A stretch of DNA of 58,967 bases from Alphaproteobacteria bacterium (lineage in GTDB: Bacteria > Pseudomonadota > Alphaproteobacteria > Bin65). The stretch's first letter is position 1; each line of letters begins with the position of its first letter. Location of the stretch: contig JAJFFJ010000052.1 of NCBI GenBank assembly GCA_021776685.1, forward strand, positions 1 to 58,967, in the 5' to 3' direction. This document shows, piece by piece, positions 12,725-30,789 of this stretch. The notes beneath the pieces were generated by a model. It was not told the DNA's origin. It worked only from the letters and a program-made list of their open reading frames with translations, and did no database searches. Made by a program: the position numbers and the translations under genes.

Positions 12725-13618
12725 TTAGCTGTCGCACACGCCGAGGCGGCCCAGCAACTCGTCCAGCTGATCCAGGGATGCGAAACTGAAGGTGATATCG
12801 CCACCTTTTGCCCGCTCATGGATATTTACCTTCAATCCCAGGCTTGCCGCCAGATTTCGTTCCAGCGCCAAGGTATCGGCGGATTTTTCCGCCGTTTGCC
12901 GCGAGGGTGCCGGCCTACTGGGAGTAGCTTTGGCCAATTGTTCGGTCTGACGTACGGTCAGGCCTTCCCGCGCTACCCGGCCGGCCAGCGCCACCGGGTC
13001 CGGCGCAGTGAGAAGCGCCCGGGCATGTCCAGCAGATAGAATGCCCTGATCCACCAGCGCCTTCACCTCGTCCGGTAGACCCAGCAGGCGGAGGGTGTTG
13101 GCAATGTGGCTGCGGCTCTTGCCGACAACGCCGGCCAGAGCTTCCTGGGTATGATCGAATTCATCGATCAGCCGTTGGTAGCCAGCCGCTTCTTCCAGGG
13201 GCGACAGGTCCTGGCGCTGGATATTTTCCACCAGGGCCACTTCCAATGTGGTCCGGTCATCCAGATCGCGCACCAGCGCGGGTATTTCATGAAGACCCGC
13301 CCGTTGCGCCGCCTGCCAGCGCCGCTCGCCGGCAATCAGTTCGTACCGCCCGGGTTTATCTGGCAATGGTCGCAGCAATATGGGCTGCAATACCCCCTGC
13401 TCCCGGATCGAGTCCGCCAGCGCGTTCAGCTCGTCCTTGTCGAAATGACGCCGTGGCTGGTAGCGGCCCGGATCGATATCCGCGATCGCGATCTGGGCCG
13501 CGCCCGGGTTGCTAGGGGGGGCCGGGCCGGTTTTGTCTCCCAGCAAAGCATCCAGGCCGCGGCCAAGTGCTCTTCGGGGTGGGGTTTTGGTTTTATCCTG
13601 GGTGTTTGCTGTGTTCAT
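12725..13618 (-). CDS. parB: Chromosome-partitioning protein ParB
   Basis: A 297-residue ParB that binds parS and spreads as a CTP-dependent clamp. The N-terminal LGRGLDALLGD motif is typical of chromosomal ParB. The CTP-binding domain shows QPRRHF and GERRWQA. The ENIQRQDLSPLEEA segment and the helix-turn-helix VVGKSRSHIANTLRLLGLP follow, and the C-terminal dimer domain ends the chain. The start codon overlaps the parA stop by four bases, so the pair is translationally coupled. Its target sites at 15024 and 17030 lie within 3.5 kb upstream. Confidence 0.97.
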   Translation of the reverse strand: MNTANTQDKTKTPPRRALGRGLDALLGDKTGPAPPSNPGAAQIAIADIDPGRYQPRRHFDKDELNALADSIREQGVLQPILLRPLPDKPGRYELIAGERRWQAAQRAGLHEIPALVRDLDDRTTLEVALVENIQRQDLSPLEEAAGYQRLIDEFDHTQEALAGVVGKSRSHIANTLRLLGLPDEVKALVDQGILSAGHARALLTAPDPVALAGRVAREGLTVRQTEQLAKATPSRPAPSRQTAEKSADTLALERNLAASLGLKVNIHERAKGGDITFSFASLDQLDELLGRLGVCDS

Positions 13619-14400
13619 GCCGCCAATTCGCTGTCACGGCGCAGCATTTCGCTCGCCAGGTGGATGTAAGCCTGTGATCCCGCACAGTTCACGTCATAGA
13701 GCAGCACCGGCTTGCCATGGGAGGGCGCCTCGGAAATGCGGACATTGCGGGGGATCACGGTGTCGTAAACCTTGGCGCCAAAATGACGGTAGACTTCGTC
13801 GGCAACCATTTCGCTGAGATTGTTCCGGCGATCGTACATGGTCAGCACAATGCCCTGGATATCCAGCCTTTCATTAAAATTGTTCTTGATCCGTTCGATA
13901 GTGCGAATCAGATGGCTGATGCCTTCAAGGGCATAATACTCGCACTGCAGCGGCACCAGCACCTTGTCCGCCGCAACCAACGCGTTGATGGTCAACAAAC
14001 CGAGTGCCGGCGGGCAATCTATAAGAATATAGTCATACTCACCCAACAATGGCTGCACGGCATTGCGCAACCGGTACTCGCGAAGCGGTTGGTCGACCAG
14101 TTCCGTCTCTGCGCCTGCCAGGTTTACGGTGGTCGGCATGATGGACAAGTTTGGGATGGCGGTCGGCACCACTGCCTGAGCTGCAGATGCTTCACCCAAC
14201 AGCACTTCGTAAGATGTGGGCCTGCCGGGTTCCACCTGAATTCCGAATCCGGTGGTGCCGTTGGCCTGGGGATCCAGATCAATCAGCAGCACCCGGCGGT
14301 GCACCGCGGCCAACGCCGTTCCAAGGTTGACGGTGGTCGTCGTCTTGCCCACGCCGCCTTTTTGGTTGGCAATGGCCATCACGCGGGTCGGTCGGGTCAT
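13615..14400 (-). CDS. parA: Chromosome-partitioning ATPase ParA
   Basis: A 261-residue Walker-type ATPase that moves ParB-parS complexes on the nucleoid. The deviant Walker A KGGVGKTT starts near residue 13, with LLIDLDPQANGT (Walker A') and ILIDCPPALGLLT (Walker B) following in order. Length and the short N-terminus identify the chromosomal Soj/ParA type and not a plasmid ParA with an N-terminal helix-turn-helix. It overlaps rsmG by four bases upstream and parB by four bases downstream, so rsmG-parA-parB form one tightly coupled operon. Confidence 0.97.
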   Translation of the reverse strand: MTRPTRVMAIANQKGGVGKTTTTVNLGTALAAVHRRVLLIDLDPQANGTTGFGIQVEPGRPTSYEVLLGEASAAQAVVPTAIPNLSIMPTTVNLAGAETELVDQPLREYRLRNAVQPLLGEYDYILIDCPPALGLLTINALVAADKVLVPLQCEYYALEGISHLIRTIERIKNNFNERLDIQGIVLTMYDRRNNLSEMVADEVYRHFGAKVYDTVIPRNVRISEAPSHGKPVLLYDVNCAGSQAYIHLASEMLRRDSELAA

Positions 14401-15080
14401 TTCTGCTCCTGGCTCCCGGCGGCAGATGATGCCTCGGGGTGGCTCGCCGGGTCCCGCGGCGTCAGGTCATGGATCCTGAGGATACGCGCGGCCGGATCGG
14501 TGATGCTCGGTAGCGCGTCCACCTGCATCTTCCAGTGTCCTTGGGCTACCGTCAATTCCTCGGCCCATTTTCGGCCCTTGTGGAAAAGACCAATTCCGGG
14601 GGAATCCCCCTGACCCCCTATATACGGCGCCACCTGACCGAGGGTTTTGGTCAAGCTAGATAAGGCTCTGGCGGTTGCGACAGTCAGGACAGGAAGTTCA
14701 ACGGATTCAATGCGTTCTCTGTGTATTTGGACCTCCACACCAGCAGCTCGCGCCGCCTCCTGCAGGAAGACGCACTTGCGGGCGTCTACTTCTATGAGAT
14801 GGACCTCCAATTCGGGCCGCATGATGGCCAAAATTAATCCCGGCAGCCCGGCGCCCGCGCCAAAATCACCGAGGATGGCTGGCGCGTCCGGAACAAGGGG
14901 CGCCAGTTGCGCCGAATCGAGCAGATGCCGTTCCCAGAGATCGTGAAGCGTGGAATTGGCCACCAGGTTGACCCGAGGCTGCCAGCGGTGCAGCAGGGCG
15001 ACATAGGCCTCGAGCCGCTCCATTGTTTCACGTGAAACACCGGTCGCATGCTGAAACCCGGCGGCATCCATATGGGCCAT
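14397..15080 (-). CDS. rsmG: 16S rRNA (guanine527-N7)-methyltransferase RsmG
   Basis: A 227-residue SAM-dependent methyltransferase (GidB) that modifies G527 of 16S rRNA. The SAM loop is DFGAGAGLPGL, with HLIEVDARKCVFLQEA and VATARALSSL following in the normal order. Near residues 14-20 the peptide GVSRETM is encoded by a perfect parS sequence, a feature shared by many alphaproteobacterial RsmG proteins. A C-terminal tail of about 25 low-complexity residues is present. It lies nine bases after the mnmG stop and overlaps parA. Confidence 0.96.
   Translation of the reverse strand: MAHMDAAGFQHATGVSRETMERLEAYVALLHRWQPRVNLVANSTLHDLWERHLLDSAQLAPLVPDAPAILGDFGAGAGLPGLILAIMRPELEVHLIEVDARKCVFLQEAARAAGVEVQIHRERIESVELPVLTVATARALSSLTKTLGQVAPYIGGQGDSPGIGLFHKGRKWAEELTVAQGHWKMQVDALPSITDPAARILRIHDLTPRDPASHPEASSAAGSQEQK
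15024..15039. promoter_or_regulatory. parS: parS centromere site inside rsmG
   Basis: The 16-base palindrome TGTTTCACGTGAAACA is a perfect match to the ParB-binding consensus. It lies inside the rsmG coding region and encodes the VSRET peptide on the leftward strand. It should load ParB encoded 1.4 kb downstream and marks this segment as origin-proximal. Confidence 0.96.
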
Positions 15081-17029: not shown

Positions 17030-17045
17030 TGTTTCACGTGAAACA
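17030..17045. promoter_or_regulatory. parS: parS centromere site between mnmG and mnmE
   Basis: A second perfect 16-base TGTTTCACGTGAAACA palindrome, in the 101-base gap between the mnmE stop and the mnmG start. It is 2.0 kb from the first copy. Two identical sites in one gene cluster would form a stronger ParB loading zone. As it sits upstream of mnmG it could also affect that promoter. Confidence 0.96.
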
Positions 17046-27406: not shown

Positions 27407-28486
27407 CTATGCTGCGGCTTGTTCTGCGCAGGGGCATTGCCCCCACTCCGCCGGACACACACGAGCCCCCCCGTCCGGTCCGATATTTTTTTCAGCGCTT
27501 CTGCTGTCTCCGCGTCCGGGTACATCATCGCGGCCGAGCGCCTGGTCCACAAGGGCTGCCAGACCGGCAATGAATTCAGGGCGTGTGGATACGGTGGGTA
27601 CGCGGGAGAACTTCGGCACTCCGGCGGACACCGCCAGCTCGCGATACTCCACATCCAGCTCCACCAAAGTCTCGGAATGCTCGGACACGAAGGCGATTGG
27701 CGCAACCACCAGGGGCACGCCATCGCTTCCGGCCCGGGCGATCTCGTCCTCGGTTGACGGGCCGATCCATTCCAGGGGTCCGACCCGGCTCTGGTAACAC
27801 ACCGTCCAATCCAGATTCGGAACCTTGAGCGCATCAACCACAGCGCGGGCGCTGGCTTCCACCTGCCACTGGTAGGGGTCGCCCCGGTCGATGATTTTCT
27901 TCGGCAGGCCGTGGGCCGAAAACAGCAGCCGGGCGCCGGGCGTGGCGTCGAGCGCAGCCCGAACCTCCAACGCGACCGCTGCAACAAATCCCTGCTCCGC
28001 CGGATAGCAGCAAACCGCCTGCGCAGGCGCGGTGATGCCAGCCTTGCGCGCGGCCTTTGCCCAGTCATCCAGCGACGATTGGCTGGTGGTGGTCGAATAT
28101 TGCGGATAGAGCGGCAGTAGAACCACCCGATCGGGGTCGAATGCGGCCACCTCACGGGCGGTTTCGCTGGCAATGGGATGCCAGTATCGCATGGCGACAA
28201 ACACCCGGCAGTCATCGCCCGATCTGGCGCTGATCACGGCTTGCTCCAACGCCGCCGCCTGGGCCTTCGTATTCGGCAGCAGAGGCGAGCCACCGCCCAG
28301 CTCAGAATAAATCTTCCGGGCAATCGGCGCCCGGCGGCGGGAGATCATTCGAGCCAGCAGCCAGCGCATGGGCTGGGGCACATCGATGATCGCCTTGTCG
28401 TTGAAAAGATTAAATAAAAATGGCTGAACAGCATCCGGAGTGTCCGGACCACCGAGGTTGAACAGGACCACCGCAACCCGGCTCAC
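27407..28486 (-). CDS. hemH: Ferrochelatase
   Basis: A 359-residue enzyme that inserts ferrous iron into protoporphyrin IX. The N-terminal VAVVLFNLGGPDTPDAVQPFL, the middle MRYWHPIASE, the FSAHGLPKKIIDRGD active-site His motif and the SEHSETLVELDVEY segment are all present. The C-terminus carries three cysteines (C344, C351, C353), a pattern that matches ferrochelatases with a [2Fe-2S] cluster, as reported for Caulobacter. The GTG start at 28486 overlaps the hemE stop by four bases, giving translational coupling. Confidence 0.96.
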   Translation of the reverse strand: MSRVAVVLFNLGGPDTPDAVQPFLFNLFNDKAIIDVPQPMRWLLARMISRRRAPIARKIYSELGGGSPLLPNTKAQAAALEQAVISARSGDDCRVFVAMRYWHPIASETAREVAAFDPDRVVLLPLYPQYSTTTSQSSLDDWAKAARKAGITAPAQAVCCYPAEQGFVAAVALEVRAALDATPGARLLFSAHGLPKKIIDRGDPYQWQVEASARAVVDALKVPNLDWTVCYQSRVGPLEWIGPSTEDEIARAGSDGVPLVVAPIAFVSEHSETLVELDVEYRELAVSAGVPKFSRVPTVSTRPEFIAGLAALVDQALGRDDVPGRGDSRSAEKNIGPDGGARVCPAEWGQCPCAEQAAA

Positions 28487-29517
28487 GCGTTGCCCCGCAC
28501 AGCGGCTACGAGGGCCGCCACATGCTCCGGCGGCGTCTCCGGCACCACGCCATGACCCAGATTGAAAATGTGCCGATGGCCAGCCAGGCCCGCGACCATC
28601 TCACGGATCCGCGCCTCCATGGGTTCGCCGCCAGCGACCAGCAATTGCGGATCCAGATTGCCCTGCACGGCGACGGTTTCCGCCAGGGATTTCATGGTTG
28701 CCAAAGTGACCGACTGGTCCACCGCCACAGCATCCACGCCGGTTTCTGCTGCGTAGACCGCATAGCGATCACCCGCCTGTCGGGGAAAACCAATGATCCG
28801 CGCGTCCGGATGTGCCGCCCGGACCCGATCGACAATTCGCCGGGTGGGCGCGATGACCTGCCGGGCGAAGTCCGGTTCCGGCAGCACACCGGCCCAGCTG
28901 TCGAACAACTTGACGCAATCCGCACCCGCCTCAATCTGCGCGATCAGGTGGTGCGCTACCGCCTCCTCCAGCCGGTCCATAAGCCGGCCAAATACATCCG
29001 GCGCCTGCCACATCAGGCGCTTGACGGTCTCGAAACCATGTCCGCCTCGGCCTTCGACCATGTAGGTCGCGATTGTCCAGGGCGCGCCTGCGAATCCGAT
29101 CAACGAAATCCCGGGATCAAGGTCCGCACGCAGGATCCTGAGCGCCTGGTAAACCGGCGTCAGGTGATCGGTAACGCCATCACCCGGCTTCAGCCCGTCG
29201 ACGCCCCTCGCATCGGTGACCGGTTCCAGCACCGGGCCGACCTTTTCGACAAACGTGACCGGCATGCCCAACGCATCCGGGATCACCAGAATATCCGAAA
29301 ACAGGATCGCCGCATCCAAAGCGAACCGTTCGATCGGCTGCAGGGTCGCCGTCACAGCCATCTCGGGCGTGTAACAAAAATCCAGAAACGATGACGCCTT
29401 CTGGCGAAGGGCGCGATACTCCGGCAAATACCGTCCTGCCTGCCGCATCAGCCAGATCGGTGGTGTTGCCTCAGGGCTGCCCGCCAGCACAGCCATGAGG
29501 GGTTTGATATTGGTCAC
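28483..29517 (-). CDS. hemE: Uroporphyrinogen decarboxylase
   Basis: A 344-residue cytoplasmic enzyme that removes four carboxylates from uroporphyrinogen III. The diagnostic motif IWLMRQAGRYLPEYR is at about residues 21-35, followed by the FSDILVIPDALG and GFAGAPWTIATYMVEGRG segments. I choose the GTG at 29517, which follows GGAG and gives the usual length; a GTG nine codons earlier is also in frame. It heads the hemE-hemH-hemJ run. Its upstream region contains a large palindrome and is the side of the presumed origin. Confidence 0.96.
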   Translation of the reverse strand: MTNIKPLMAVLAGSPEATPPIWLMRQAGRYLPEYRALRQKASSFLDFCYTPEMAVTATLQPIERFALDAAILFSDILVIPDALGMPVTFVEKVGPVLEPVTDARGVDGLKPGDGVTDHLTPVYQALRILRADLDPGISLIGFAGAPWTIATYMVEGRGGHGFETVKRLMWQAPDVFGRLMDRLEEAVAHHLIAQIEAGADCVKLFDSWAGVLPEPDFARQVIAPTRRIVDRVRAAHPDARIIGFPRQAGDRYAVYAAETGVDAVAVDQSVTLATMKSLAETVAVQGNLDPQLLVAGGEPMEARIREMVAGLAGHRHIFNLGHGVVPETPPEHVAALVAAVRGNA

Positions 29518-29545
29518 GCGCCCGTTCTCCGGCTTTGTGTACACT

Positions 29546-29608
29546 GACCAACAGACTCCACTACATAGATTCTTTATAAGAATCTTGTTGTAGTGGTAGT
29601 AGTTGGTC
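29546..29608. repeat. 63-bp three-tier palindrome
   Basis: Three nested pairs of arms are seen: GACCAAC/GTTGGTC (29546-29552, 29602-29608), CCACTACA/TGTAGTGG (29558-29565, 29589-29596) and GATTCTT/AAGAATC (29568-29574, 29578-29584). Spacers of five bases separate the outer and middle tiers on both sides. It starts 28 bases upstream of the hemE start. Confidence 0.93.
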
Positions 29609-29670
29609 CACCTAGAGTCGGGGATTATTAAACAGTCTACAAGAGGCGGTCGTTTCGGGCGACAACCTGT

Positions 29671-29699
29671 CCTGTATTATACAACGCGGGATAATCAGG
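29671..29699. repeat. Dyad with an internal TATAAT-like core
   Basis: CCTG..ATTAT and ATAAT.CAGG flank a 10-base loop (29671-29680, 29691-29699). Inside its left arm and loop is an 11-base perfect palindrome TGTATTATACA (29673-29683), which on the leftward strand contains the sequence TATAAT. Confidence 0.7.
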
Positions 29700-29732
29700 G
29701 GGACATGTCGGAAAGTGGTCGCCTGTGCCTCA

Positions 29733-29762
29733 GGATTCACACCCCTCTAAACAAGTGAATCC
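29733..29762. repeat. Inverted 8-mers GGATTCAC/GTGAATCC
   Basis: Perfect 8-base arms at 29733-29740 and 29755-29762 enclose 14 bases. Read outward they give GGATTCACA and GGATTCACT, each close to a DnaA box (TTATNCACA) in its last seven bases. Confidence 0.8.
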
Positions 29763-29785
29763 CACACATGAAATTTCAGGTGTGG
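29762..29785. repeat. 24-bp near-perfect palindrome
   Basis: CCACAC and GTGTGG flank the 10-base palindrome TGAAATTTCA with one mismatched base pair between core and arm. It abuts the inverted 8-mers on its left. Confidence 0.85.
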
Positions 29786-29940
29786 TTTGTCCCTCCCCAC
29801 TGTTCACCCGCCTCTGACAAGTCGATACAGTGTGCGGAACCCTGCGGGGCAATCCGAGTCGGCTGAGGCACTGCGGGTATAGAATCAGGCCTTTCCGGAA
29901 AACACCCTATTCCATCCCCGCGACTCAGAGTGGGACTCAC

Positions 29941-30789
29941 ATGTCATCCAGAGAACCGCACCACCTTTATTTGATCTCTGACGCCACCGGCGAGACCGTG
30001 CAGGCGATCGCCAAAGCGTGTGTGGTGCAGTTCGAAGACGTGGAAGTCGTGGAGCACATCTGGCCCATGGTGCGGACGGAACGGGCCCTGGAAACCGTGC
30101 TTGAAGAGTTGGAGGAACAGCCGGGTCTGGTCATGTTCACGCTGCTGGACGACAAGCTGCAACGACGGCTGAAGGAATTCTGCTGGACCAACGGTATCAA
30201 CTGTCTGTCGGTGATGGAGCCGTTCATCTCGGCGATGGCCGCTCATTTCAAGGCGGTCAGCCAGGGTCTGCCCGGCCGGCAGCATGTGCTGGACGAGAGC
30301 TATTTCACACGGATCGATGCGATCAATTTCGTCATGGCTCACGATGACGGTCAGGCAACCGCTAACCTGGCAGAGGCAGAGGTTATTCTGGTTGGCGTCT
30401 CGCGCACCTCGAAAACCCCCACGTCAATCTATCTGGCCAACCGGGGTATCAAGGCAGCCAACGTCCCCATCGTTCCGGACCTGCCTTTGCCGGAAGGATT
30501 ATTGAACGGACCCAAAGCGCTTATCGTCGGCCTCACCGAGGACCCGCGCCGGCTGGTAGAAATCCGCCGCACGCGCATGAAGATTCATGCCGAAGACCAC
30601 GACACCGACTATACGGATCTGGAGGCAGTGAAGGTAGAAGTGGCCGCCGCGCGGCGGCTTTTCGCGAAACAGGGCTGGCCGGTCTTCGACGTCACCCGCA
30701 GGTCGATAGGGGTACCCGCGGCCGGGATCATCCAGCTGTTGGGCCAACAGCAGCGTCAGGACGACGACCCTGTCTCCCCGGCGGACTGA
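29941..30789 (+). CDS. Pyruvate-phosphate dikinase / PEP synthase regulatory kinase-phosphorylase
   Basis: A 282-residue bifunctional DUF299 protein that phosphorylates and reactivates PEP synthase or pyruvate-phosphate dikinase. The N-terminal LYLISDATGETVQAIAKA, the conserved YFTRIDAINFVMAHDDG segment and the P-loop GVSRTSKT at residues 152-159 are all present, and NVPIVPDLPLPEGL follows. The ATG at 29941 begins the family's usual N-terminus and follows the presumed origin. No ppdK or ppsA is in the window, so the target enzyme is elsewhere. Confidence 0.93.
   Translation: MSSREPHHLYLISDATGETVQAIAKACVVQFEDVEVVEHIWPMVRTERALETVLEELEEQPGLVMFTLLDDKLQRRLKEFCWTNGINCLSVMEPFISAMAAHFKAVSQGLPGRQHVLDESYFTRIDAINFVMAHDDGQATANLAEAEVILVGVSRTSKTPTSIYLANRGIKAANVPIVPDLPLPEGLLNGPKALIVGLTEDPRRLVEIRRTRMKIHAEDHDTDYTDLEAVKVEVAAARRLFAKQGWPVFDVTRRSIGVPAAGIIQLLGQQQRQDDDPVSPAD

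Follow-up and report, generated by a model that had tools for sequence, protein, structure and literature searches.

The window analysed here is a 58,967-nt stretch of DNA that makes up an entire contig (C106) of a draft alphaproteobacterial genome (4.54 Mb, 158 contigs, 98.9% complete), among whose closest relatives in the family are drafts that were submitted under the name 'Candidatus Odyssella'. A 423-bp intergenic gap (29518-29940), the putative oriC, separates two divergent genes identified by Pfam: hemE on the minus strand (28483-29517; URO-D, E 4.6e-117) and, on the plus strand, a DUF299/COG1806 (PPSR) kinase-pyrophosphorylase gene homologous to RP001 (29941-30789; PF03618, E 2.2e-88). 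The gap is richer in A+T than its flanks (48% vs 38%), and its size falls inside the range of about 300-600 bp of alphaproteobacterial hemE/COG1806 oriC regions, the boundary genes of which are divergent. Leftward of the gap, hemE is accompanied by hemH, hemJ and rho (all assigned by Pfam) and, beyond them, by mnmE, mnmG, rsmG, parA and parB; rightward, the DUF299/PPSR gene is accompanied by maf, aroE, coaE, dnaQ and secB (Pfam). Transcription is directed away from the gap on either side, out to rho on the left and dnaQ on the right. The parB and parA genes (Pfam) occupy 12725-14400 on the minus strand. Exact matches to the parS sequence TGTTTCACGTGAAACA are found at the rsmG/mnmG boundary (15024-15039) and in the mnmG/mnmE gap (17030-17045), 14.5 and 12.5 kb to the left of the hemE/DUF299 gap, respectively. 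They are the only two exact sites in the whole 4.54-Mb assembly, and parS pairs around mnmG occur at equivalent places in three relatives. Their distance from the gap agrees with the rule that an alphaproteobacterial hemE/COG1806 oriC has its centromere no more than some tens of kb away. The dnaA gene is located on a different contig (C11). An initial annotation had placed a chromosomal origin in this gap on account of the hemE side, the rightward gene order from the PEP synthase regulator to dnaQ, the divergence of the genes and the presence of two parS sites 12-15 kb to the left, and all of these descriptions are borne out.

The gene order is that of the experimentally proven origin of Caulobacter; both this origin and that of Rickettsia are situated between hemE and COG1806 (PMC1914354). 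The Cori of Caulobacter crescentus resembles the gap in its boundary genes, its length (404 vs 423 bp), its AT-rich core, its proximity to ParAB/parS and its weak TCCCC-type sites. It differs in carrying G-boxes TGATCCACA, five CtrA sites and one IHF site, none of which was found in the gap. A search for CtrA sites of the form TTAA-N7-TTAA found none in the gap and one in 5 of 72 class origins, and the gap contains no match to the IHF consensus. The origin of Rickettsia prowazekii (hemE/RP001) has the same boundary genes, but it is strongly AT-rich and has been reported to contain DnaA, CtrA and IHF sites. The adjacency of hemE and DUF299 is kept in all ten family genomes in which the contig permitted a check, and in 60 of the 63 other genomes drawn from the class (23/23 in one draw and 37/40 in another).

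Our pooled set of hemE/DUF299 gaps has 72 members, namely that of the window, nine from its family and 62 others, and a gapless class motif of 40 bases was trained solely on the 62 non-family gaps. In the motif, a TNG-rich triplet tract is separated by a short spacer from an inverted DnaA box TGTGGATAA, after which comes CGGGGAT; the inverted box has decayed to differing degrees, being exact in eight class origins. At the level of sequence, this order and its polarity are those of the basal unwinding system (BUS), whose DnaA boxes serve to load the protein onto DnaA-trios (PMC8287927). Within the window contig the top-scoring match lies at 29586-29625 on the plus strand (8.9 bits vs 5.6 for the runner-up), and shuffled versions of the gap reach the score of the real one in 9 of 2000 shuffles. 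The score of 8.9 is beaten at at least seven places in 0.52 Mb of the same genome, by scores of up to 13.3; the class motif by itself is therefore insufficient to identify the origin, and its use as a genome-wide unique origin marker was rejected.

Within the motif match lies a DnaA-trio-like tract, GTTGTAGTGGTAGTAGTTG (TTG TAG TGG TAG TAG TTG; 29587-29605, plus strand), and the stability minimum of the contig sits immediately before it. When the 59-kb contig is scanned for nearest-neighbour stability, its least stable stretch begins at 29554-29562 whether the length considered is 30, 50 or 80 bp, and the same scan places a candidate DNA unwinding element at 29554-29641. Conservation within the class motif is highest in the block represented here by CGGGGATTA on the plus strand, which is TAATCCCCG on the minus strand, a W-box- or DnaA-box-like site (29619-29627, minus strand) with three mismatches to TTATCCACA. 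The trio-like tract and CGGGGATTA are in register with the places where the 62 other class origins have trios, the inverted DnaA box and CGGGGAT. The gap shares with the BUS of Bacillus subtilis and others an unwinding core, a triplet tract, a short spacer and a DnaA-box position, all with the same strand polarity. It differs in that the triplets are TNG, some of them TAG, and in that no DnaA box lies inside the published limits. The published BUS rule, which asks for three or more NAN triplets no farther than 16 bp from a DnaA box having at most two mismatches, holds for 37 of the 72 class origins and fails for the gap, so that a strict BUS classification of the gap was rejected.

DnaA boxes are where the gap departs from its class. 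It contains none with at most two mismatches to TTATCCACA, the number predicted by chance being 1.2. At least one such box is present in 70 of the 72 class gaps, which together hold 371 against an expectation of 77. The position of the inverted box TGTGGATAA of the relatives (box 1), as given by the in-register class alignment, is 29610-29618 on the plus strand; here the sequence is ACCTAGAGT, which mismatches at 9 of 9 positions and includes the start of a GAGTC. A genome of the same family (G008) retains GCTGGATAA at box 1, and boxes such as TTTTCCACA or TTCTCCACA are still present in family relatives. The remark in the initial annotation that no canonical box is visible is thus correct at the two-mismatch threshold, and its suggestion of divergent boxes or another layout holds up, as the box conserved in relatives has been replaced here. 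W-box-like TCCCC[A/G] sites number three in the gap against 0.75 expected (P 0.04). The W-boxes of Caulobacter are TCCCCA (PMC4285127), and those of Cori are bound solely with cooperative help (PMC4468827). The DnaA of the source genome is a full-length DnaA family member whose DNA-binding domain has the usual DHTTV signature. Since this motif is ordinary, altered specificity is not indicated as the cause of the divergent boxes, and a DnaA of altered specificity was rejected, the signature and domain IV both looking ordinary by eye. Canonical DnaA boxes look as though they are avoided in the same genome, where TTATNCACA has 14 occurrences and the reversed pattern 36.

The gap is also dense in GANTC (CcrM-type) sites. 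Ten of them, starting at 29554, 29568, 29580, 29615, 29734, 29757, 29856, 29882, 29922 and 29934, form a cluster (29554-29938) where the density of the contig predicts 0.85, an enrichment of about 12 times over background in 423 bp (Poisson P 2e-8). Any other 423-bp stretch in 0.52 Mb of the same genome holds at most six, and the density in the gap tops those of all 72 class gaps. GANTC sites in Caulobacter origins have already been reported (PMC3973325). Among the 72 origins, 19 have a GANTC in a single exact register within the inverted DnaA box (motif positions 27-31), where column frequencies predict 7.2, and the sequence there takes the form GTGANTC followed by TGGGGAT. The same register is used in 12 of the 62 origins outside the family against 4.5 expected, related genomes not being independent samples. 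A CcrM homologue with a RAMA domain is encoded in the source genome (C92:38015-39058). A search of that genome for GcrA did not find it; the CcrM homologue is thus present without GcrA, though the pair has been described as conserved together. In genus g2, full CcrM is absent from G001, G002, G003, G005 and G007, several of them near-complete, and is present in the sisters G004 and G006, a patchiness that suggests recent loss or assembly gaps.

A 63-nt imperfect inverted repeat (29546-29608, plus strand; z -5.6) surrounds the AT-rich melting core, the triplet tract forming its 3' arm. It folds as DNA at -19 kcal/mol, and none of 200 shuffles folds equally well. The hairpin is the strongest among the 72 class origins and has the second strongest non-overlapping folding z in the contig scan; the strongest z of the contig (-6.5) belongs to the segment 48897-48970. 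Across the class the hairpin is real but weak, with a mean z of -0.79 vs -0.14 in control segments. In the 72 gaps, the 40 nt upstream of the triplet tract pair with their own tract better than with swapped tracts by 5 SD; the corresponding value in controls is 1.35 SD, and within-genome base composition may contribute. These results hint that an imperfect inverted repeat around the core is common to class origins. Neither the GANTC cluster nor the hairpin appeared in the initial annotation.

Local GC skew has no clear switch in the window or in the 142-211 kb contigs of three family members, and is too weak in the family to inform on the origin. In one complete relative (G289), the sampled skew stays negative or close to zero in almost all 20-kb samples as far as 1.63 Mb and is positive from 1.68 Mb onward; the DUF299 gene is at 1.654 Mb. 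The skew of another genome (G267) is weak but consistent with a switch at the junction. In the source genome, none of the 75 TTNTCCACA sites forms a pair less than 350 bp apart, which leaves the genome with no visible rival cluster of boxes. An origin beside dnaA on C11, the kind of finding that the initial annotation had named as speaking against its proposal, was rejected, as no C11 site is among the TTNTCCACA and TTATNCACA matches listed.

Taken with the junction, the parS sites, the unstable core and the trio-like tract, the skew switch of G289 at the junction and the lack of a DnaA-box cluster elsewhere in the genome support the proposal that the origin lies between hemE and the PEP synthase regulator gene. 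The gap is very probably the chromosomal origin of the source alphaproteobacterium, homologous by position to Caulobacter Cori. We judge it to be a Caulobacter-type oriC whose position and readily melting core are ordinary for the class and whose interior is otherwise unusual. The gap could instead be a relic, in which gene order and parS were inherited, initiation was relocated elsewhere in the genome and the DnaA boxes decayed. The complete lack of boxes with two or fewer mismatches, the full mismatch of box 1 and the persistence of boxes in family relatives are what such decay would leave. The gap has retained, however, the unwinding core, which is the least stable DNA of the contig, as well as the trio tract and CGGGGATTA; ten GANTC sites would not be expected in a decaying gap; and an assembly rated 98.9% complete has no TTNTCCACA cluster elsewhere. 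A relic is very unlikely on this evidence. That the hairpin and the conserved block serve hemE or the DUF299 gene as a regulatory leader or promoter region, with no origin present, is extremely improbable. The hairpin does lie upstream of hemE, 29 bp from its start codon, and would fall in the hemE 5' leader, but no sigma-70-like promoter was found in the gap, an Rfam search of the gap gave sub-threshold matches alone, and the block resembles a DNA unwinding element, trio and inverted DnaA box, the last of which is exact in eight class origins.

If the gap is the origin, DnaA would, as in Cori, load cooperatively from the weak W-box-like sites, not from high-affinity boxes, and would spread along the strand carrying the TNG triplets, with melting at about 29554-29608. 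GANTC methylation and the hairpin might, more speculatively, adjust access to the melting core. On another reading, the origin would be sequestered through CcrM in the manner of E. coli Dam/SeqA, and GANTC would have taken the place of the DnaA box at box 1. The gap and E. coli oriC are alike in the density of methylation sites within the origin, but the sites here are GANTC and not GATC. The cluster, densest among the 72 origins, the CcrM homologue with its RAMA domain and the shared box 1 register are in keeping with sequestration. Against it, origin GANTC density is alike in genomes without and with CcrM (6.6 vs 6.8 per kb of gap, P 0.85; drafts may miss ccrM), and a dependence of this density on CcrM was rejected for want of a difference. 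Furthermore, relatives in genus g2 that lack CcrM still have GAGTC at box 1, GcrA was not found in the source genome, and deletion of ccrM in Caulobacter leaves initiation control normal (PMC3973325). We regard sequestration as unlikely. It is also quite unlikely, to our mind, that the gap is a DnaA origin without any high-affinity box, in which the box has been replaced and opening of the core is controlled by the GANTC cluster together with a hairpin that holds the trio strand. Were this so, the overlap of GANTC and DnaA box (GTGANTC) that other alphaproteobacteria have in this register would represent such a switch in its general form.

The position of the origin was already expected for the class, and it is the interior that merits a second look. 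In the alignment across the class, unwinding core, trios, inverted DnaA box and CGGGGAT follow one another in a constant order. Because this order is kept here while the DnaA box is lost, the locus is a natural test of the minimum DnaA-box information that an origin needs. It equally offers a natural test of whether GANTC sites have any function in the origins of alphaproteobacteria.
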